Source: a virus
Virus record (IMG/VR): IMGVR_UViG_3300006865_000003
Coordinates: 1-42,808 of that record
Length of the DNA: 42,808 bases
Direction: 5' to 3' (one strand)
In this document: one piece after another, positions 6,898 to 20,862 of the stretch
Layout of the letters: every line of letters starts with the position of its first letter
Numbering within the stretch: the first letter of the stretch is position 1
Notes under the pieces: generated by a model
The model's database searches: none
What the model was told of the DNA's origin: nothing
Seen by the model: the letters and a program-made list of their open reading frames with translations, nothing else
Position numbers and translations under genes: made by a program

Positions 6898-9800
6898 TTA
6901 ATTCCATTTTTCCTCGAATGATTGGAGCACTTGTTCTGCGGTCAGCGCCCGGTCACCGTCGTAGAATATAGCAGGGTTCGCCTCAGCGGCTTGCGGCATA
7001 ATAGCCGCCGCGCTCTGGTTGTCGCCAGCCTCGGCGGCGTTAATCAGCCGCTTAGCCCCGCCCACGCCAGCAAAGTGGGCCGCATAAAGCTCACCCGGCG
7101 TCGGCTCGCGGCCCAGCGTGTTGGCCAGCGCCGCGTAGTTATCGGCCGTCAACGCCCGAGCGGCGAGCGTGGCCACCTCGGGGTCAAAGCGAAGGTCCAG
7201 AATGGCTTGCCTTGCTTGAGCGTTAATCGGTCTACCGCGCTCGTCGAAGTACGGCCCAAGGCCAAGACTTTGCCCGTGCTTAGCCATCGTGGCCAGCCAC
7301 GTGCTCTCAACAAACTGGAACAACCCGGCCGCGCTAGAGGTGGCGGCTTGTGCGCCGGGGTCGCCGCCACTCTCGATTTCCGCCAGTCGTTGCAAGTATT
7401 CGTCCGCGATTTCCTCGGGCGCAACCGGCTCGAAACTGGTGGCCGTCACCTCTTCCGGCGGCGCACCGGGCGTGTAGGGCACTTGTCCGGCGGCCTCGGT
7501 AGTGTCAGGCGAGCCGGTCGCAGCCGTGGCGGCTTGACCAGCAGCGAGCGGAATGCGTGCGACAATCTGCTCGGCCAATTGGCGGGCCCGTTCTTGACTG
7601 CCGGTGTACTTTTTCAGCATGGCGATAAGCTGACGGATTTTAGTCGGGTCGTAGGCCAGCTCGGCGATCTGGTTGGCCGCACGCTCGTCAACGTCGAGCG
7701 AGGACAACAGCTCGGTAAACGTGCCGGCTTGGAACGCACCGCCCGAGCGGCCCGACAGAATAACGGCCGCCGCCGCGCCCCGGCGCGTGGTGTCGCGGGT
7801 GTCTTGGTCCACCGTGCGGGCGCGGGCCGGTGTGGCTTGGCGAAGGTTATCCGACGCGCGCGCAGCCACCTGCCCCAGCTCGGCCAGTCGTTGTCCCTCT
7901 TGCGGCCCCAGCACTTCGCTTATTCCGCGCTGCAAGCCGGTGTCGTTGGACAGGCTTTCGGCCAGTGCGGCGGCCTGGGACGGGCCACGGATGGCGCGCT
8001 CTTCAAGAGCGGTGCGCACACCCTCTTGGGCGCCGGCGCGCAAAGGCGCGGCCACAAAGTCCGGCGAGCCGGCGCCACGCGCTAGCGCCATGGCCTCGGC
8101 GTCGCCGCTGGACGAGACAACGCGGCTGCCGGCGTTAATGCCGTCCGCGCGGCTAAGAGCGCTAGAAAGGTCACGCAGACCGCGCTCGTAAAGCTGGCCC
8201 GGCGCGCCCGCGTTGCGCGCGATCTGACGCACTTTGTTGGAAAGGTCGAACATGCCGAAGCGGTTGCCGGCTTCACCGTAGTTACGAAGGCCCTGACGGA
8301 TACTGTCGATTTCGCGGATAGTCAGGACAACGGGCTTAGCCGCCTCGGCTGCGGCGGTGCGTGCAGCGGCGGAAGCGCGCGCGGCGGCTTGGCGAAGGCG
8401 CGTGTCTTGCTGGCGCAGAGCAGCGAGGCGCTGGCGCGCCCGCACGCGGTCGCCGGCCTTGTCCATGTCGGCTATGGCGTCGCGAAGGCGGTCGATTTCC
8501 TGACGGTTTTGGGTGACAGCTTGGGTAGCCCGGCTGGCCTCAGCGCGGGCGGCGTTGGCCGCTTGCTTGCGAGCCAAGGCGGATTGGATGCGCTGGCCGG
8601 TGTCGCCAAGCGAGCCTTGTGGGTCGTTGTAAAGGCCCCGGATCGCTTGGTCGTTAAGCAGGCGAAGCTGTGCATCGTTGAGCGTCACCGGCGCGTTTTC
8701 CACGCGACGCATAACCCGACTAAAGCCTTCGTTCGCTTCGGCTTTAACGCCCACGGCGGACACGGGTTTATTTCCAGCTTGGATAGACCGCCCAAGGTCA
8801 GCCGGCCGCGCGTCCCGTAGCGCTTCGCCGGTAAGGCCCGCGCGCTCAGTGGACGACGACGACCGGCTGACAAGGGTGCGAACGTCCGCCGCTCCGCGCG
8901 GCTCTACGACTTCGACGAACGCGGGTTGTGTACCAACGACACGTTCGAAGTCATCGACGGAACGCTCGATCTGTTGCGGGCTTTGCTTTAGGCGGGCTGC
9001 AATGGCCTGTACGCCAGCGTTCTCGCTGACGCGGCGTACGATAGGCGCGACAACCGGCTCGGCTGCGGCGGCTACGCCACGAAGCGCGACGCCAGCCCCG
9101 GCGCCCAAGGCCGCGCCCGTACCAGCACCCTCGGCTGCGCCCTCCACCGTGCCGGCGCGCGCGCCGCCCTCGGCTGCGCCATAGACAGCGCCGCCAGCCG
9201 CACTAGGGATGGCCACGCGCGCAGAACCGCGAAGTATTTGGCCCGTGCGGCCTCCACGCCGGGCGACTTCGGAGACGCGCGCTGTTTCACCAATCCGGCT
9301 GGCGGGGGCTACAGGAGCGAGCCTAGCGCCAATTGCAGCGCTGGCGCGCGGCGCGGCTTGGCTGGCGGCGCGAACTACGGCGCTGGTGGCCGCGCCGCCC
9401 ACGGGCAAGGTGGCCACAATGCCCGCGCCTGTACCGGCGGCGGCCGAGTACGGGTTAGCGCGGCGAACTTCTTCTTCGTAAATCGACTGCGCACGCAAAC
9501 GACCGCCGAAAGACGGGCCTTCGCGGCCACGAACCGCGTCCTCTACTGCGCCACGCGCGGCGGCCGCGTAGGATCCGACATTGAACAAAGCTTGGTTCGC
9601 GCCCGAGCGTGCAGCGTTGGCTCGCGCGACCGCGTCGCCACGGCGCGCGTCTTGGCGGGCCGCGCGGCGCGCCGCCAACTCAAACAGAACATCGCGCGCC
9701 TGTTGGGCGTTTCCTTGTCGAGATAGCTCGGTTGCGCGGTTGGCCAGACGGTATTCCTCAACGGTGGCCGGCTGGAATTGGCCAACGCGTGGGAGCTGTC

Positions 9801-11162: not shown

Positions 11163-12086
11163 TTAAAACAGGTCATCGAGCACGGAACCGATAACCGCGC
11201 CGAAGATGCTGCCGCTGCCGTTTTGGTTATACTGCGCCGCGTTTGCGCCGCCGGTCGAACCCGCCGAACCGATAGCTTGGATACCCTGTAAGCCCTGTTG
11301 GCTGATCTGCGAGCCGGCCGCCAAGCCCGTACCAGACAAGCGCGAGAGCTGGCCAAGGTAGTTTTCAAACTCGGCGCTGGCGAGGTTCTGGCCTAGCTCT
11401 TGGTTGGCGCGAAGCGCCGCGCCGCTGTTCAGCAAGCCACGAGCCGCTGCGTTGCTGGTGATCGCGCGCTGGCCTTCGCCAAGTCGGAACTGGTAACCGG
11501 TGGAATTAAGGTAGTTTTGGAACGCGTCGCCGGCGTTGCCGCCGCCGGAAGCGGTGGGCGCGGGCTGTTGGACCATAACGCCGGCAGAACCTCCACTGGA
11601 CGAGATAGGGACCATGCCGCCGCCGGTCATAGGGCCAGCCGGGAGCGTGCCTCCGTTGGCCGCCGCTAGCGAGCCGTTGGGGCCGTAGAACGTGCCCCAG
11701 TGTCGCCCGGTGGCCTGTGGGATGATCTGTCCGCCCGGTGTGATTTGGTAACCCGGCGGGATAGTGCCCTGTTGCGTCGGCGCGGCGGTCGTAGGAGCGC
11801 TGTAGGTCGAGCCGCCGCCCACACCCAAGAGCGAAGCCATGGCGTTGTTGGCCGCCCCGCCCGGCGCGAGGTAGTTGTTGTAAAGCGCCGTGCTCGCGCC
11901 GGTGCCTTGGTTGATGTACTGTTGAAGCTGCGGGCTGTTGCGCAGATAGTTGAAGCCCTGCATCGCCTGTTCTTGCGCACGGCGGTCGTCGCCACGGCCA
12001 AGCAGGCCGCCCACAAGGGATGCGCCGGCGCTTACAAGGGAGCCGATTGGGATGGGCAAGGTGTTCTCGTATTTGGCTATCCCCAT
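11163..12086 (-). CDS. DNA-transfer/ejection protein (P22 gp7/p32-like group)
   Basis: The first ATG of the frame (12086) is taken as start, giving 307 residues; a TTG at 12143 would extend it by 19. Residues near 10-35 hold an apolar Gly-rich stretch (GSLVSAGASLVGGLLGRG), often found at the start of DNA ejection proteins. The middle is Gly/Pro/Ser/Thr-rich and variable. The C-terminal half has FQNYLNSTGYQFRLGEGQRA, then AARGLLNSGAAL and FENYLGQLSRLSGTGLAAG, a segment I recognise in podoviral ejection/DNA-transfer proteins. It is the first of three ejection-type genes in a row. Confidence 0.7.
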   Translation of the reverse strand: MGIAKYENTLPIPIGSLVSAGASLVGGLLGRGDDRRAQEQAMQGFNYLRNSPQLQQYINQGTGASTALYNNYLAPGGAANNAMASLLGVGGGSTYSAPTTAAPTQQGTIPPGYQITPGGQIIPQATGRHWGTFYGPNGSLAAANGGTLPAGPMTGGGMVPISSSGGSAGVMVQQPAPTASGGGNAGDAFQNYLNSTGYQFRLGEGQRAITSNAAARGLLNSGAALRANQELGQNLASAEFENYLGQLSRLSGTGLAAGSQISQQGLQGIQAIGSAGSTGGANAAQYNQNGSGSIFGAVIGSVLDDLF

Positions 12087-12139
12087 GCAGGCGGGGCAAC
12101 CTGGGCGCGTTCGGCCGGCGCGCGACAGCGCGGATAGAT

Positions 12140-12176
12140 ACAATTAACCGGTTTAGGTTAATGTGTCAATGTCAAG
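12140..12176 (-). promoter_or_regulatory. Candidate leftward promoter with TTAACC/GGTTAA inverted repeat
   Basis: The gap between the fibre gene and the first ejection gene reads, on the minus strand, two overlapping TTGACA copies followed by an AT-rich stretch with the inverted repeat TTAACC...GGTTAA and ending near TAATTGTATC. The -35-like element is perfect but no good -10 lies at 17 bp, so the promoter call is weak; the inverted repeat could be an operator. It could drive the three ejection genes separately. Confidence 0.3.
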
Positions 12177-13324: not shown

Positions 13325-14230
13325 TTAGAACCCCAAGCTTATACGGCGCATAATGTCGTCAACAGAACCCACGGCGGCCAGCGTACCCTCAAAGAAGAAA
13401 GCCGCGCGCGTGGAGAAGGTTTGGTTCGGCGCCTGCGATACCGACAATGACGTGGTGTTGTACTCGTACCACGAGTTGACCGTGTGCATCGTGCCGCGCA
13501 CGTTTGGCTGCCAAGACGCCGAGCCGGTGGTTTGAATTTCAAGGATACGAACAACAGTGGTGCCCGTTCCCGACTGGTTGGAGACAGCGACTACGTAACG
13601 CTGGCTAGCCGTTAGAGCAACCGGCGAAGAAAACGGAAAGCGCGTAAACACGGGGTTAGTGGTCGCGGGCTGTACAACCGTGCTGGTGGCCACGATAGAG
13701 ACTACCGTGCCGGAGCCGTTGTCCGTGTAAATGGTGACTTGGTGATTTTGTCCGGTGGCGCTGGCGTCAATGCCGAACCACACGGCTTCAACCGAAAAGC
13801 TTTCATCGGGTGTAAACGCCGAGCCCTTGGTCGCGAAAGCGTTTATGCCCACGTTGTTCGGCGCGCCCGTGGCGCCGAAAATGCGGTTAGAGCCCCCGCC
13901 GCCGCCTCCGCCGGTGCCGTTGGCCGCGAGCGTAATGCGGCCTTGTGCGTCAACGGTAATGTTGGCGTTCGTGTAGCTGCCGGGCGTGACCGCTGTGTTC
14001 TCAAGGTCGATGGTAATATTGCCCGGTCCGCCGAGCGCACCGCCGCCGCCGAGCCCAACGCCGGCGATAACTTGCCGGCCAAGAAGCGCGTTAAGGTCGA
14101 CGGTGATACCGTCGATAGTGACGTTGACACCGCGTTGCTGCGCCCACTGACGCAAGAACTGTGCGGTGGGCAGCCCGGTTTTCGGGTCAACGATGGGCAG
14201 GTTCCACTGTAGCGGATTAATCTTGCTCAT
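13325..14230 (-). CDS. Putative tail/receptor-contact protein with glycine hinge
   Basis: The ATG at 14230 is preferred to an upstream TTG (14257), giving 301 residues; it overlaps the previous gene by 14 nt. The N-terminal part (MSKINPLQWNLPIVDPKTGL, then FLRQWAQQR) resembles the short anchor found at the start of several podoviral tail proteins. A Gly run near residue 110 (TGGGGGGGS) acts as hinge to a C-terminal beta-sandwich-like part (about 120-290) with strand patterns such as HQVTIYTDNGSGTV, as in carbohydrate-binding modules. It probably joins the fibre or contacts the host surface. Confidence 0.6.
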   Translation of the reverse strand: MSKINPLQWNLPIVDPKTGLPTAQFLRQWAQQRGVNVTIDGITVDLNALLGRQVIAGVGLGGGGALGGPGNITIDLENTAVTPGSYTNANITVDAQGRITLAANGTGGGGGGGSNRIFGATGAPNNVGINAFATKGSAFTPDESFSVEAVWFGIDASATGQNHQVTIYTDNGSGTVVSIVATSTVVQPATTNPVFTRFPFSSPVALTASQRYVVAVSNQSGTGTTVVRILEIQTTGSASWQPNVRGTMHTVNSWYEYNTTSLSVSQAPNQTFSTRAAFFFEGTLAAVGSVDDIMRRISLGF

Positions 14231-15020
14231 TGCGGTCTTCCAAGTCGGCGCCGTCAATGGTGAGCAATCCGCCCACGTCCTCGATTTTAAACACGCGGCC
14301 CGGTGCGCGGATCAGCCCGAGCCCGCGCCAAGACAAGTCTTGCGTGCGGTTTTGAACGACCGTTAGGCTGCCTCGGTTGTTCCAGGTGACGCCTTTGTCG
14401 TCGCTGATAGAAAGGCTCACCGACGGAGCCGGCGAAGCCTCAAGCGTAGTCTGCGGCGTGGTGGCGAGGATAAGCGAACCCGTGCGCATCGTCTTGCGGC
14501 CGTTCATCGGGATAAATCCGGTTACGCGGCGCGTAATCAGCCTGAAGTCGTCGTCAAGATAGCTGTCGGGGTCTAGCTTCCAGATCGTACCGTTGGACTG
14601 GTCGCCGGCGTATACGCCGCCGTTCCACTCAACGCCGTATTCCATGTTCCAAGTGATAATGCCCTCAGTGCCCCACTGCGACCACTGGTCCGTCATGGTG
14701 TCGTAAACCCAGGTGCCGGTGTTGCCGAGGTGCAGCACATAGAACTGGTGCATGTCGAACGTGAAGCCCCACGCGCGCGACTTGGACTGCGTGGCCGGGC
14801 CGGTCACGTAGGAAACTAGGACGAATGCTTCACTTACTTGGGCCACGGGCTTATCCTGCAAAACTGAAACAAACGCACACGCCTCTGACACGTCGATAAA
14901 CCGTGGCGGCGGCGGCCCTGTAGAGACAAGGACGAAGGCTTCCGATACCGCCGCCGCGCCCCTGTCGCTTTGAATAGAGGCGAGCGTGAATAGCTCGGGG
15001 ACTTGAGCGTAGCCGGACAT
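14217..15020 (-). CDS. Tail propeller/gp10-type protein, C-terminal-half-like
   Basis: The product has 267 residues. Residues 20-75 contain three copies of a short strand, VSEAFVLVS, VSEACAFVS and VSEAFVLVS, separated by Pro-rich or polar linkers. The rest (RAWGFTFDMHQFYVLHLG, VYDTMTDQWSQWG, NGTIWKLDPDSYLDD, ISDDKGVTWNNRGS, APGRVFKIEDVGGLLTIDGA) has the repeated W/D/G blade pattern found in the C-terminal half of podoviral packaged-DNA stabilisation (P22 gp10-like) and related tail proteins. It probably closes or extends the tail below the portal. The matching N-terminal half lies two genes upstream, with a LamG protein between. Confidence 0.65.
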   Translation of the reverse strand: MSGYAQVPELFTLASIQSDRGAAAVSEAFVLVSTGPPPPRFIDVSEACAFVSVLQDKPVAQVSEAFVLVSYVTGPATQSKSRAWGFTFDMHQFYVLHLGNTGTWVYDTMTDQWSQWGTEGIITWNMEYGVEWNGGVYAGDQSNGTIWKLDPDSYLDDDFRLITRRVTGFIPMNGRKTMRTGSLILATTPQTTLEASPAPSVSLSISDDKGVTWNNRGSLTVVQNRTQDLSWRGLGLIRAPGRVFKIEDVGGLLTIDGADLEDRNEQD

Positions 15021-17155
15021 TACAACGTCCTGTCAAGGCGCAGTTTTGCTCCTACAAAGGTTGAAGGGGTCAACGCTCCCGAAGTGGACGGATCGGTAGT
15101 GATGATGTCGGTGTAGTAGGTAAAGGACGTGCTGATCGGACGGTCAGCGCCGTTGGCCGAGCTGTTGTCGGCCGTGACAAGCGCGGCCTGAACGTTCGCG
15201 TCGCCAGTGTCCGTCTTACGCGCTCGATAGACGAGAGACGCGGCGCGAACGCCGGTAGTCTGCGACGGTAAGCGGCCAAGTAAGAACTCGCTTTCGCCCG
15301 GTATGTTGAGCCCGCCCGTGAGCGTGCTCGCCGTCCAAGAGCCATTTGCCAACGTCTCGGTTGTGCCAATCGAGTTGCCCGCCGTGCCCGGCGTGTTGGC
15401 CGTGGCGCGCATCTGGTTGTTGCCGATGTTGAGCGCCGAGGCGTTAGTGCTGGGCGTGGTTCCGATGCCGTAGATCGTGCCCGAGCCGGGGTCGCCGTTT
15501 ATCGCCGCCACAAGGTTGTCGATGCTGGCGCTAATCGAGCCGCCGATAAGAACCGAGCCAGCGCCGCCCAACACCGTGTTGAAGGTGTAGGTCACGCCGT
15601 CAAACACAACGGTTTCTCCGTTGCTTATAGTGCCCGTGATCGTCAGCACGCCGGTCGCGGCTGTGTAGGCTGCTTCAACGTAGGTATCGTCGCGCGGCTC
15701 GGTCTGGTTGATCGTCTTGTAGTCGCCCGGCGGCGTGTCGTCTACGAGCAGGAAGTTGGCTGTGCCGATGGTCGAAACAGCGCGCGCGAAGCTGCTATCA
15801 TCAACAAGGCTGCCGTTAAAGCCGAGCAGAAGCGACACGCTGCTGAAGCTCGGGTCGTCGGTGCTGTTGCGACCGAACGCGGCGGTGGGAGCGACAAAGC
15901 CCGTGGCGTTGTAGCGCGCCACGCCCTTAGTGACGCGGAACTCGTCGATAAACCCGTTGAAGATGCTGGTGGTGATAACCGACGCGACACCGTTTTGCTC
16001 GCCGCCAAGGTTGAAAGTCGCCGTGCCGTCGAAGTACGTGTTGGCGTCGGCCTTCGGCGCGGTGAGCGGCACACCGTCAACAAAGATAACCGTGTTGCCG
16101 CTTAAGCGTTGCACGCAGATGTGATACCAACGCCCCGTGATCGGCGCGAAGGTGCATTCGGCAATGGTCGTAACGGTAGCGCCTGTGCCGTCCGTGCTGA
16201 CAACGAAGTCAAGCGTGCCGCCGAGCGACGGGCCGGTAAGCTCAAGAATGTAGCTGCGCTCATTGGTTGCCGCGCGCCACTTGCCGAACAGCACGGCCTT
16301 GTTAGAGCCGGTCGGTAGTGCGCGGAACTTAAAGAAGCCTTCGATGGTGTAATCGCCGTTGCTAAGCTCAAGCGGCGCGCTGTCGACGCAAGTCAGCGCC
16401 GCATCGGTGCCGTCGAACTGCGCAACGCCCGTGCCGAACTTAAAGCGCGTTACGCCAACCCAGCCGCTCGCTGGCGCGTCGGCTACAACCGGTATAGTGG
16501 CCACACGCACGGTGCCGGGAAAGTCGTTGTTCGAGCTGCCGTTGGCGTCGTTGACGTGCAGGTCGTCGATGTAAAAGCCCACGGACGAGCCGCCGTCAGC
16601 GTTAGTGATCCAGTGCTTGAGTTGCGCGATGGCTGTAGCTCCGGTGTTGACGTTGGTAAGCGTCAACACCGTAATGTTGTCAACGCGCACTTCGACCGAG
16701 CCGACCGTCGCGCTCTTAACCACCTTAATGGCCACGTGCTGCCACGAGCCGGCCACGATAGCGTTGTTCGGGGACGAGCCAAGGTCGGTGCTGGCCTCGT
16801 TGATGTAGGCGAGCGCGCCGGTAGATTGCAGCACAAGCCGGCCGATGCGGTTGTTCGAGTTGTCGCGGAAGTCGCAGATGTTGAAGGTGTTGTTGTTGAT
16901 CGGTAGCTGCGTCGCGTACAGCCCGAACGACACGAACAGGGTCGTGTAGGTGGAAGGCAAAACGAGGCGCGCGCCTTGGAAGCTAGCCCCCGACTGCACG
17001 GGGCAGAACAGTGCTCCGATGCCCGTACGGGCGCCGAATGAGGGATACTGTGGCGACGGGCCGGACATTTCGGCCCAACGGCCTTGCGTCATGGCGGTAG
17101 CGGCGGGCCCGCCGGTGCCGTAAATGTCGAAGCTCTCTTGGAAAAGGACAGCCAT
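15020..17155 (-). CDS. LamG/concanavalin A-like lectin tail protein (711 aa)
   Basis: The product begins MAVLFQESFDIYGTGG and has at least two lectin-like folds: residues about 1-210, and residues about 240-445 with the LamG pattern (DYTIEGFFKFRAL, RWYHICVQRL, TVIFVDGVPL, IFNGFIDEFRVTKGVARYNA). A further module near 530-620 (FDGVTYTFNTVLGG to ATANTPGTAGNSIG) is also found in the gp10-like protein encoded next door. LamG folds bind sugars or proteins, so this is a strong candidate for host-surface binding. The gene touches both neighbours by one base (TAATG), showing tight coupling. No cutting or chaperone domain is visible. Confidence 0.75.
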   Translation of the reverse strand: MAVLFQESFDIYGTGGPAATAMTQGRWAEMSGPSPQYPSFGARTGIGALFCPVQSGASFQGARLVLPSTYTTLFVSFGLYATQLPINNNTFNICDFRDNSNNRIGRLVLQSTGALAYINEASTDLGSSPNNAIVAGSWQHVAIKVVKSATVGSVEVRVDNITVLTLTNVNTGATAIAQLKHWITNADGGSSVGFYIDDLHVNDANGSSNNDFPGTVRVATIPVVADAPASGWVGVTRFKFGTGVAQFDGTDAALTCVDSAPLELSNGDYTIEGFFKFRALPTGSNKAVLFGKWRAATNERSYILELTGPSLGGTLDFVVSTDGTGATVTTIAECTFAPITGRWYHICVQRLSGNTVIFVDGVPLTAPKADANTYFDGTATFNLGGEQNGVASVITTSIFNGFIDEFRVTKGVARYNATGFVAPTAAFGRNSTDDPSFSSVSLLLGFNGSLVDDSSFARAVSTIGTANFLLVDDTPPGDYKTINQTEPRDDTYVEAAYTAATGVLTITGTISNGETVVFDGVTYTFNTVLGGAGSVLIGGSISASIDNLVAAINGDPGSGTIYGIGTTPSTNASALNIGNNQMRATANTPGTAGNSIGTTETLANGSWTASTLTGGLNIPGESEFLLGRLPSQTTGVRAASLVYRARKTDTGDANVQAALVTADNSSANGADRPISTSFTYYTDIITTDPSTSGALTPSTFVGAKLRLDRTL

Positions 17156-18393
17156 TATGACGTTCTTTCTATTTCAAGCGCTAGGCGAATTTTCTCGCTG
17201 ATGGCGGCGTCGCTGATGGGCGTCGGTCCGCCGGCAACGCGGTAAACGATGTTGTCGTCGCCCACGATAAACACGCTGTCGGCCAGCTTAACCACTGTAC
17301 CTTGAAGCGCGCCACGCGCAAATGGTCGGCCGGCCACACGCACGAAAGGCGCGTTGGGGTCCGTACCGTCTAGGTACCACGGCTCGGTGGAAGACTGGCC
17401 GAAAAACCATACCTGATCGCCGATGGTAATAGCGTCAATCAGGGTATCGGGCTCACTCTCGGCCTCAAAGAAGTTAAGCGGGTTAATTGTAATCTCGCCC
17501 GGTTCGATCCAGTAAACGCGCTGACTGTTGGCCACCACGCAGAGGATGTACGAGCTAAGGACGGTGACGCTGGAAATGCCCACGTCATCCGGCGTTTTGA
17601 TCCCCGAAAGCGCGTTAAGGCCCGACGCCACGAGGTTGGCGCTGGACCACGCCAGACCGTCTGCACCGCCGGTGGCCGTAACCGACACGGGTATAGCCGG
17701 AAAGGGCGCACCGCCGCCACGGTTGCGCACGCTGACCGTTGTAGAACTGTTAGCGTTGCTCTCGACGCGCGCGTTGGCCACAAGGCCGGTGGAGTAGTCA
17801 GTTCCGGCTACACCGGTGCCGTTAACGGCTTTGCGAAGGTTCGCCAGCGCGTTGGCGTTGGAACCAGCCACCGCCACACGGTAAGGCGAGGCGAGCGTAC
17901 CAGCGCCGGCGCTGGGCGGGGTGGTTTGGAACTGGTAGTAGATGCCGTCAATGATCACCACGTCATCAGATATGGTGCCGGGCGTGAGCGTAAGCGTGGC
18001 GGTGTAACTCTCGCCGCCGTAGAACTGTAGAAGCGTGCCGTCAGCGATAAACAAGCGCTGATAGGCCGCGCCAGACACGCCGGCCATGCGCGGGTTGCCC
18101 GGCGAGGTCACCGAACCGGATATAGTAACGATGGTGCCATCAGCCTTGTAGCGGTAGAGCGCGGTGTCCGACACAGAGAACAAGTCGCTGTCAAACAGGC
18201 CCTTGAGCGTGAAATTTTGACGGATCGGACCCGCACCGAGCACGGCTTCAAGCGTGGTGCCCGGCCGGGCTAGCAAGCCCACTTCGTCGGTGCGGTTAGT
18301 GGGGTTGGCCTCAAAGAAGCGGTTGTAAAGCTCCACCTCCGGGCCGCCGTTGTAGGTGCGGTTGTAGGCCCCACGGCCAAGCGGGATACGCAT
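17155..18393 (-). CDS. Packaged-DNA stabilisation / tail hub protein, gp10-like (N-terminal-half-like)
   Basis: The ATG at 18393 (one base overlap with the upstream stop) is chosen over a TTG at 18405; the product has 412 residues. The start MRIPLGRGAYNRTYNGGPEV and the later segments NPLNFFEAESEPDTLIDAI, WFFGQSSTEPWYLDG and GDDNIVYRVAGG match the P22 gp10-like family, which plugs the head-tail channel after packaging. Residues about 135-260 form a module (VVIIDGIYYQFQTTPP and on) also present in the LamG protein. The end (AISEKIRLALEIERTS) is where longer family members, as I recall them, continue into the part encoded at 14217-15020. Confidence 0.7.
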   Translation of the reverse strand: MRIPLGRGAYNRTYNGGPEVELYNRFFEANPTNRTDEVGLLARPGTTLEAVLGAGPIRQNFTLKGLFDSDLFSVSDTALYRYKADGTIVTISGSVTSPGNPRMAGVSGAAYQRLFIADGTLLQFYGGESYTATLTLTPGTISDDVVIIDGIYYQFQTTPPSAGAGTLASPYRVAVAGSNANALANLRKAVNGTGVAGTDYSTGLVANARVESNANSSTTVSVRNRGGGAPFPAIPVSVTATGGADGLAWSSANLVASGLNALSGIKTPDDVGISSVTVLSSYILCVVANSQRVYWIEPGEITINPLNFFEAESEPDTLIDAITIGDQVWFFGQSSTEPWYLDGTDPNAPFVRVAGRPFARGALQGTVVKLADSVFIVGDDNIVYRVAGGPTPISDAAISEKIRLALEIERTS

Positions 18394-19130
18394 TACACGT
18401 ACCAATCATTGATGCCGAGGCGGAAAGTCTGCTCGCTCTCGGTGACGCGGCTGTTGGCGATGGCGACGGCTTGGCTTTGCTTGTACTGCGTCTTACAGCG
18501 TTTGAGCATAGCCTGGAACATAGAGGCGATTTCAGCCGCCGCCGGCTGCTCGTTGCGCGGTCCCATGCGCACGGCGATGTAAGTCACGAACAGGTCGTTG
18601 AACACGGGAGGCAGGGGAAGAACATCGTTAAGGCCCAGCTCTTTCACCTCGACCCAGGCCCCAAGGTCGGCGCGGTAGAAGAACTCTTTGCCGTTAAGGG
18701 CTGCCGCCGTCTCATAAACCACGGTTGGCGCGTTGACGAACAACACGCCGTTGGCGTCCAGAGTGACCGAGTACGGACCAGACCCCACGTCCACAAAACC
18801 GATGCGGGCCCCGTCACTGGGGCTAGGCGGCAGAGTTAGCGTCGTGTCCGCGGTAATGCGGAGTAGCACACGCGAGTTGACGGGCGGGTTGAAATACCAA
18901 GTCGTGCCCTGGTTCTCGCTAACCAAGTTTTCAGGCAAGCCGCGCTGCTTCTCGGGCGGCGGGACCAGCCAATTCTGTGTGTACTCCCCCAGCTCGATAC
19001 CGAACAGGGCGCGCCAGAAGTCGTTTAGACGCGACAACGCCTCGGCCTGTTCCTCGGCGGTGGGCGCGTCGCCCAGCTTCGTAATGTTGGCGTCGCGATA
19101 GCCCGCCGCGATGGCTTCGGAAACAAGCAT
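18393..19130 (-). CDS. Head-tail connector / tail accessory protein (P22 gp4-like)
   Basis: The product has 245 residues. The N-terminus MLVSEAIAAGYRDANITKLG, then EALSRLNDFWRALFGIELGE and WLVPP, is a helical region I recognise in podoviral proteins at the gp4 position, which sit under the portal ring. The middle (RVLLRITADTTLTLPPSPSD and on) is beta-rich; the C-terminal part (NDLFVTYIAVRMGPRNEQPA, AEIASMFQAMLKRCK) is again helical. It stands directly before the gp10-like gene, as in P22. It would join head to tail and hold the DNA in. Confidence 0.7.
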   Translation of the reverse strand: MLVSEAIAAGYRDANITKLGDAPTAEEQAEALSRLNDFWRALFGIELGEYTQNWLVPPPEKQRGLPENLVSENQGTTWYFNPPVNSRVLLRITADTTLTLPPSPSDGARIGFVDVGSGPYSVTLDANGVLFVNAPTVVYETAAALNGKEFFYRADLGAWVEVKELGLNDVLPLPPVFNDLFVTYIAVRMGPRNEQPAAAEIASMFQAMLKRCKTQYKQSQAVAIANSRVTESEQTFRLGINDWYV

Positions 19131-19572: not shown

Positions 19573-20862
19573 TTAAGCCGAGCTGCCGTACAGGCGAGCG
19601 CCGAGTCGGCGATCCGCGTTGATGACGCCGTAGATCATGTCCCAACGGTGGATGTGAGCACCGGTGGCGATGTCCGAACCGCGCCAGTAACGGATGGAGA
19701 TACCCGTTTGAGGATCGGTCGTGAACGCGCTTTCGCCAGTCATCGGTCGTTGCAGCTTCGCGGACACCAGGGCCAGCGCTCGCTTGTGGAAGGCCACGCG
19801 CGGCGTGTAGGTCGTGTTGATCGCACCGTCGAAGGTGATCGCCGCGTCGTCCGCCGGAACCGCGCTAACGGTGCCGAAGGCCGAGTTGGCCACCGTGTCA
19901 ACGCCATCGCTGGTGCCGGGCACGATGATCGCGGGAGCGATATTAACGGTAACGGAGCCGTCCGAAGAAGAGGTCGTGTAGCTGCCGTCCGCCGTGTTCG
20001 GATTGGGGAGAACCACGAAGCGCTGGTCGTCGGTAAGAGCGCGTTGGTTGCGCCAATCGTACTCTTTAACGCCGCTGATCACGAACGTTTCGCCGGCGTT
20101 GACCTTCTTGGAGTTACCAAGGCCGTCAATGACGAACGTTTGCTGCATGCCGGCCTTAACGTCCTTGTAGTTGACGTTTTGGTTGGCGCCCTTGACCGCC
20201 GGACCGGCAGACATGGTGTGATCGCCGTTGGTGTAACTAGGCAGGTTCTGCGTCGCATACGGGTCGATTTCCGACATGACCGGAATACGGGCCCGCTCCA
20301 ACGCCGTGCGGTTGACTTGCTGAATGTCGCCGCCGACCAAGGAACCACGGATTTTTTCGCCATCAACGAAGGCCAGAACCGCCGAAAGCTGCTCGTTCGG
20401 CACACCCTGAGCCATAAGGCGGGTGTGGACCGGGAAGAACTCCGCCGGACTGTCAATCGTAAGGCCAACCAAACCCGCCATGGTCGGGAACTCAAGCGCC
20501 TTGTTGGCGATAGAGCGGTCAACCGCGTGGGCCAGCGTGCTCGCCGCGCTCATCATGGCGCTGTTGCGCATCAAGTCGTTGAACGACTGGACGTACTCAA
20601 GATCGCCGATGTTGATGTGGACGTTCTTGTACTCGTTGACTGCAACGGTGCGCGAGCCGATCAGCAAACGCTGGGCTTGGAGCGCGGCGCCGTTTTGGGC
20701 GACGAACTGGGGCGGCGCCTTGATCGAAGTCGTAAGACCGTTTTCGTCGGTAACCTCGTTCTTAAACTGGCCGTCGACCAGCTTTCCCCACACGAGCTGG
20801 TTCTTCAATAGAACCATCATCACGTTGGAGAAGGTTTGTGCGTTAAGAAAACCGTTAGACAT
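19573..20862 (-). CDS. Major capsid (coat) protein, P22 gp5-like
   Basis: The product has 429 residues, the usual size for P22-type coat proteins. The N-terminus MSNGFLNAQTFSNVMMVLLK with the following NQLVWGKLVDGQF, the TVAVNEYKNVHINIGDLEY segment and the C-terminal RYWRGSDIATGAHIHRWDMI with YGVINADRRLGARL are features I recognise in the P22 coat family of HK97-fold proteins. A Gly/Ser/Thr-rich inserted part (about 290-345) may be the surface-exposed domain. It stands after the scaffold and before a strong terminator, which fits its need for high expression. Confidence 0.88.
   Translation of the reverse strand: MSNGFLNAQTFSNVMMVLLKNQLVWGKLVDGQFKNEVTDENGLTTSIKAPPQFVAQNGAALQAQRLLIGSRTVAVNEYKNVHINIGDLEYVQSFNDLMRNSAMMSAASTLAHAVDRSIANKALEFPTMAGLVGLTIDSPAEFFPVHTRLMAQGVPNEQLSAVLAFVDGEKIRGSLVGGDIQQVNRTALERARIPVMSEIDPYATQNLPSYTNGDHTMSAGPAVKGANQNVNYKDVKAGMQQTFVIDGLGNSKKVNAGETFVISGVKEYDWRNQRALTDDQRFVVLPNPNTADGSYTTSSSDGSVTVNIAPAIIVPGTSDGVDTVANSAFGTVSAVPADDAAITFDGAINTTYTPRVAFHKRALALVSAKLQRPMTGESAFTTDPQTGISIRYWRGSDIATGAHIHRWDMIYGVINADRRLGARLYGSSA

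Follow-up and report, generated by a model that had tools for sequence, protein, structure and literature searches.

Sequence evidence for a two-chain form of the gp10-type tail nozzle protein with an exchangeable cargo slot between its halves

Introduction

The gp10-type nozzle protein belongs to the conserved core of podovirus tails. Its described members, P22 gp10, Sf6 gp8, and the stabilization (needle head) proteins of Pan3 and Pam1, correspond to phrog_578 (head closure Hc3), and they consist of one chain in the solved structures and in the eight named phages compared here. In the present study, a virus record from IMG/VR (IMGVR_UViG_3300006865_000003, positions 1 to 42,808; hereafter the window, i.e., the whole stretch of 42,808 nucleotides that was analyzed) was investigated, in which a protein resembling these members in profile, fold, and position between an adaptor and later tail genes appears to be encoded as two chains, gp10-N and gp10-C, the first with an extra domain and the second with a repeat-bearing extension. 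Between the two lies a gene for a lectin-like protein (the M gene).

Other phage tail parts offer partial parallels. N4 gp65 forms a six-fold sheath with gp64 and is the receptor-binding protein (PMC12633501); the gp64/gp65 sheath (NCTSP) constitutes a receptor-binding layer round the tail tube of a podovirus. A tail ring protein serves as the carrier of carbohydrate-binding modules in evolved distal tail (evoDit) proteins (PMC9128512). Counterparts of the M gene occur in Tetraselmis virus S20 and Mesorhizobium phage Cp1R7A-A1 (phrog_2448), where the gene after the homologous lectin-like gene bears repeats of the same kind, but the putative anchor is a siphophage baseplate hub protein in S20 and a stand-alone 103-aa protein in Cp1R7A-A1, as opposed to gp10 in the window. 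The arrangement proposed below for the window resembles evoDit proteins in that a tail ring protein would carry sugar-binding modules. In evoDit proteins, the carbohydrate-binding module belongs to the carrier chain, whereas in the window the cargo is a chain of its own and the carrier is divided into two. The open-access literature, searched by title and abstract start, yielded no account of a split gp10 or of VSQAxVLV-type repeats.

Results

Profile searches against PHROGs assigned both window proteins to phrog_578 "head closure Hc3": gp10-N (412 aa, 17155..18393, minus strand) matched positions 5-279 (E 2e-34), and gp10-C (267 aa, 14217..15020, minus strand) matched positions 286-453 of 486 (E 8e-27), while no significant Pfam family was found for either. 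The same succession was observed in the solved-structure search, in which gp10-N covered residues 3-90 and 118-260 and gp10-C residues 269-421 of the Pan3 nozzle chain 9vyg_M. In all eight phage relatives fetched (Pan3, Pam1, ctkAd229, ctNMl277, DSL-LC05, VvAW1, ctfPj964, and BA3), one gene of 442-491 aa encodes the complete protein. These results bear out an earlier note, made from the letters of the window without database searches, which had proposed that the 412-residue protein stops where longer gp10-like relatives continue and that the missing part is encoded two genes downstream, and which had named as checks a profile search of both proteins against the gp10 family and a look for phages with a single fused gene. 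The two halves match successive, non-overlapping stretches of one family rather than unrelated families, and neither outcome that the note had named as refuting its view was observed; gp10-C does possess an N-terminal extension of its own in split relatives.

The predicted folds pointed in the same direction. The AlphaFold model of gp10-N (23-row alignment; mean predicted local distance difference test score, pLDDT, of 80.7) aligned with residues 11..288 of P22 gp10 (8eap_D; Z 19.1, 2.9 A over 239) and with Pan3 9vyg_M (Z 21.5), its scores for P22/Sf6-type nozzle proteins being well above those of non-phage rows. The model of gp10-C (21 rows) aligned with residues 284..472 of P22 gp10 (Z 10.3, 3.9 A over 178), and its top matches were the nozzle proteins of P22, Sf6, Pan3, and Pam1; since unrelated rows reached Z 9, only slightly lower, the fold match of gp10-C is weak by itself and its assignment is carried by the sequence profile. 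Together, the two models tile P22 gp10 with a cut at about residue 284-288, and gp10-C keeps the conserved residues of the gp10 C-terminal part. The sequence comparisons, with which the folds agree, show that gp10-N and gp10-C correspond to the two successive portions of a single ancestral protein, divided past a conserved ISxxxIEERIR helix.

Relatives were collected by two IMG/VR scans, with a 3-member alignment as the pattern of the first (best 80 of 390 relatives) and split gp10-C sequences as that of the second (best 80 of 113 relatives); contigs found in both carry two locus ids (L numbers) and were merged by clustering gp10-C at 90% identity. IMG/VR scans with gp10-N or gp10-C as a single sequence retrieved no relatives. 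In the first scan, the N and C profiles fell into separate open reading frames (ORFs) in 25 of the 80 loci and into one ORF in 42, with the remaining 13 cut off before the C part, and the closest relative (L026) showed 59% identity in gp10-N. All 80 loci of the second scan were split, which is no measure of how common splitting is because the pattern was built from split genes. Overall, 63 clusters including the window were split at the same place, and in the relatives compared the cut position was constant, with gp10-N stopping shortly past the ISxxxIEERIR helix and the C part beginning at (R)AWTFxxDGHxFYVL. In one scan of bacterial and archaeal genome contigs, the N and C parts were joined in one ORF in 17 of 17 loci, and tblastn with the window halves and a distant split relative indicated no split gp10 among 50,697 phage records, these searches being insensitive and 8 hit records having been opened.

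Two trees were congruent with these counts. The gp10-N tree (30 split versus 50 unsplit rows) and the gp10-C tree (26 split rows, including the window, versus 50 unsplit rows) each required one change and placed all split rows in one clade with a support of 99 in the Shimodaira-Hasegawa-like approximate likelihood ratio test (SH-aLRT). Both are quick trees without bootstrap, and in the gp10-N tree, from which 9 short or cut rows were excluded, 9 of the 30 "split" rows were judged from the end of gp10-N with the C part out of view. The fixation of a two-chain gp10 in one clade is therefore well supported at the sequence level, and one ancient gene fission is probably the simplest origin of the split.

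The gap between the halves is occupied in the window by the M gene (711 aa, 15020..17155, minus strand), which is joined to gp10-N and to gp10-C by TAATG overlaps. Residues 5-228 of its product matched phrog_2448 (E 4e-13), residues 249-409 form a LamG domain (PF13385; 46.7 bits versus a Pfam cut-off of 27.6), residues from about 495 to 615 constitute a domain common to gp10-N, and a conserved C-terminal part follows. Coordinates, junctions, and the LamG match thereby agree with the lectin-like protein of 711 residues described in the earlier note. Alignment against solved structures gave weak matches only, including two with chains of the lectin or S-layer type, and a lectin-gene profile built without S20 and Cp1R7A-A1 recovered their homologs with E values of 1e-69 and 3e-43, respectively.

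A lectin-like gene was present in the gap of 56 of the 63 split clusters, and none was detected within the fetched flanks of the unsplit loci examined. Two main sizes were observed: products of about 350 aa consist of the phrog_2448 type by itself, and those of 700-800 aa also contain LamG and the domain shared with gp10-N. In the seven other clusters, gp10-C opens with 237-578 residues of other domains. In L052 (8257-10593), these are the NCTSP_N domain and TIM barrel of an N4-type non-contractile sheath (Pfam E 2e-132 and 1e-77), matching chains 9lc0_M (Gp64) and 9lc0_I in the solved-structure search; L115 showed a weak PQQ-propeller match, and the other lectin-less clusters little or nothing recognizable. 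The window differs from the N4 sheath in that a lectin-like protein, with a gene separate from that of gp10-C, forms the cargo; neither NCTSP_N nor the TIM barrel was found by Pfam in the 8 window proteins scanned, and only the relative L052, where the NCTSP domain occupies the same slot, has them. The domain comparisons show that the gap is an exchangeable cargo slot, usually filled by a phrog_2448-type lectin-like gene. As to the two origins offered by the earlier note, the fixed two-subunit version was upheld, and the splitting of an ancestral gene would fit as well; insertion of a receptor-binding gene as its cause is possible but not needed, since clusters with other cargo fused to gp10-C are split without any lectin-like gene. 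In L062, a second cargo gene (8928-9386), similar to the podophage GP4 fiber I protein gp80, was observed between the lectin-like gene and gp10-C.

The first 77 residues of the window gp10-C are non-gp10 sequence with three VSEA[FC]xxVS repeats, namely VSEAFVLVS (14922..14948), VSEACAFVS (14865..14891), and VSEAFVLVS (14811..14837), all on the minus strand. Variants of a "VSQAxVLV" repeat, spaced by 17-20 residues, are usual at the start of gp10-C in split relatives when the lectin-like gene is present, and are often phased relative to the point where the gp10 part begins (about -19, -36, -54, and -72). A matrix derived from the repeats of Cp1R7A-A1, S20, and phiCbK only, all outside the clade, gave phased matches in most gp10-C extensions, while tblastn of the 80-aa gp10-C extension and of the Cp1R7A-A1 repeat protein yielded nothing further in the phage collection, as expected for short repeats.

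The repeats were also evaluated by a motif-blind periodicity test, in which the best ungapped self-match at a lag of 14-24 was compared with shuffles for the 63 clusters (cut-off p < 0.02, fixed before the result was known). Significant periodicity was detected in 45 of the 56 clusters with a lectin-like gene versus 0 of the 7 without (Fisher, P = 5.8e-5), and in 51 of 56 versus 0 of 7 at p < 0.05. Among the controls, none of 67 unsplit gp10 genes passed p < 0.02, and other ORFs did so in 7 of 200 cases (16 of 200 at p < 0.05). L137 and L156 combined a lectin-like gene, a fused domain, and repeats, indicating that the repeats go with the lectin-like gene and not with the length of the extension. 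Judged by motif and periodicity, the strand-like repeats of 17-20 residues usually accompany the lectin-like cargo, and they were not detected where other cargo is fused and the lectin-like gene is gone.

Similar pairs of genes occurred outside the gp10 clade, in phages with unrelated tails. Sixteen such contigs with a profile-detected M gene were examined, and in seven the next gene carried repeats (six by periodicity and motif by eye, S20 (L010) by repeat inspection outside the periodicity test); as these contigs were chosen for their M gene, the proportion describes how often repeats accompany it and not how frequent repeats are without it. Contigs in which further ORFs beside M genes passed p of about 0.02 (e.g., L014, L016, L022, and L208) were scored as repeat-less for want of a motif by eye. 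The carriers in the seven comprised a hub, a distal tail, a tail assembly, a minor-head-like, and another virion protein, a stand-alone small protein, and a protein of unknown function. In S20, the repeats connect a LamG domain to a baseplate hub attachment domain and BR0599; in Cp1R7A-A1, they make up the stand-alone 103-aa protein; in phiCbK, they lie in a 69-aa protein upstream; and in L202, they are on the C-terminal side of the protein of unknown function. In four of the seven, the protein encoded directly after the phrog_2448-type gene opens with the repeats, namely a distal tail protein (L198, 5709-6455), a protein with a minor-head match (L199, 2613-5174), a virion structural protein (L200, 5702-6952), and a tail assembly protein (L201, 6094-7542).

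In addition to the split, the window gp10-N contains an extra domain of about 130 aa (17614..18015, minus strand), visible as a gap in the alignment with the eight unsplit phage relatives, which resembles the domain in the lectin-like protein (15311-15673; BLASTP 38% over 74 aa, E 2e-5, plus profile matches). The gp10-N proteins of L062, L115, L135, and L144 are 284-307 aa long, i.e., shorter by about the length of this domain, and L056 (2-1807) showed several tandem matches of it on gp10-N, which suggests a domain expansion on the nozzle. In L059 (1878-3714) and L060 (6986-8822), gp10-N itself was found in two ORFs cut within the extra domain, which may reflect a further insertion or a frameshift.

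The gp10 pair lies after the coat gene (19573-20862) and a probable head-tail adaptor at the gp4 position (18393..19130, minus strand), and before an ejection-type gene (11163-12143), a gene position as in phrog_578 proteins. The adaptor gene is joined to the start of gp10-N by a further TAATG overlap, and its assignment is based on a match to SU10_adaptor (Pfam E 0.008, below the cut-off) and on a gene order equal to that of the adaptor-gp10 pairs in Pan3 and Pam1. Following gp10-C and overlapping its end, a gene at 13325-14257 with weak DUF4082 and tail-fibre matches probably encodes a needle or fibre. No further gp10 ORF was identified in the window beyond gp10-N and gp10-C. With profile, fold, and position all of the gp10 type, and with two ORFs in place of the single continuous chain usual for phrog_578 members, the pair was classified as a two-chain variant and not as an ordinary member.

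Discussion

Taken as a whole, the locus probably encodes a P22-like podovirus gp10/Hc3 nozzle made of two chains, in which the gap between the genes is a cargo slot and the repeats dock the lectin-like protein. In this proposal, both chains would be placed next to each other in a ring of the usual type, with six copies of each as in P22 gp10; the repeats that open gp10-C would act as a docking strip binding the lectin-like protein, which in turn would contact the host surface, so that the exterior of the nozzle would become a receptor-binding surface.

Several observations weigh against this proposal. Docking of the lectin-like protein is deduced from co-occurrence, and this co-occurrence is not phylogenetically independent, as the lectin-like gene changed five times on the best tree but only twice where branch support is good, which leaves a paired test underpowered. 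The window repeats alone are weak (p 0.027, passing 0.05 but failing 0.02), and 5 of the 56 lectin-positive clusters had no significant repeats even at p < 0.05. The gp10-C model is poor, with a mean pLDDT of only 61 and values below 50 for most of the extension, including the repeats. Moreover, phrog_2448 has no known function, a receptor-binding role being suggested by the LamG domain and the swap in L052. Finally, 9 of the 16 contigs with an M gene outside the gp10 clade had no such repeats in the next gene; among them, a Brevundimonas phage showed degenerate-looking repeats by eye in the second-next gene.

One alternative accepts the split as fixed but regards the lectin-like protein as merely co-transcribed and located elsewhere in the virion, with the gp10-C repeats serving as a decoration of its own or as a ring-assembly device. 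Translational coupling through TAATG could by itself keep the gene order, and some M genes elsewhere have no repeat-bearing neighbor. This alternative nevertheless appears unlikely, given that the repeats were undetected in all seven lectin-less clusters although gp10-C persists there, and that like repeats stand beside like M genes on unrelated virion proteins.

It is considerably less plausible that gp10-C has left the ring and now works as a separate cargo adaptor outside a nozzle of gp10-N alone, an arrangement that the confident propeller-like model of gp10-N, conserved up to the cut, would allow but that is at odds with the retention by gp10-C of the conserved residues and fold of P22 gp10 284-472. 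Removal of the gap as an intron or intein, at the RNA or protein level, would restore a full-length gp10 from both flanks but is very improbable: gp10-N has its own stop in the closed ORFs compared, the middle ORF has a separate start and so does gp10-C, the middle protein is lectin-like and gave no match to endonuclease or intein families in Pfam or PHROGs, and in lectin-less loci gp10-C carries an additional domain joined in frame at its N-terminus. That the split reflects a sequencing error, a pseudogene with a frameshift, or an insertion that recently broke gp10 in one genome has nothing in its favor beyond the commonness of single-gene relatives and is refuted by independent contigs with the same split, namely the 63 clusters with the same cut, open frames, and one clade in two trees.

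Beyond the two-chain nozzle with its cargo slot, a broader reading of the repeats can be entertained tentatively, although we consider it somewhat more doubtful than credible: the repeats might form a docking code that is portable and widespread among tailed phages, in which each strand of 17-20 residues would bind one copy of the C-terminal domain of a lectin of the phrog_2448 type. Virion proteins of any kind that bear repeats (gp10-C, a distal tail protein, a hub, or a minor head protein) could then carry a chosen number of lectins, and in the clade of the window this would have accompanied the splitting of the nozzle at the docking point.

A clade with a two-chain nozzle, in which the cut serves as an exchangeable cargo site, would illustrate how a core tail part can become a platform for receptor binding. 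The portable docking code is a larger claim, compatible with the evidence but not proven by it. Should the repeats indeed dock the lectin, they would also serve as an address tag by which receptor-binding proteins could be recognized among unannotated phage proteins and assigned a location, in podophages and siphophages alike.

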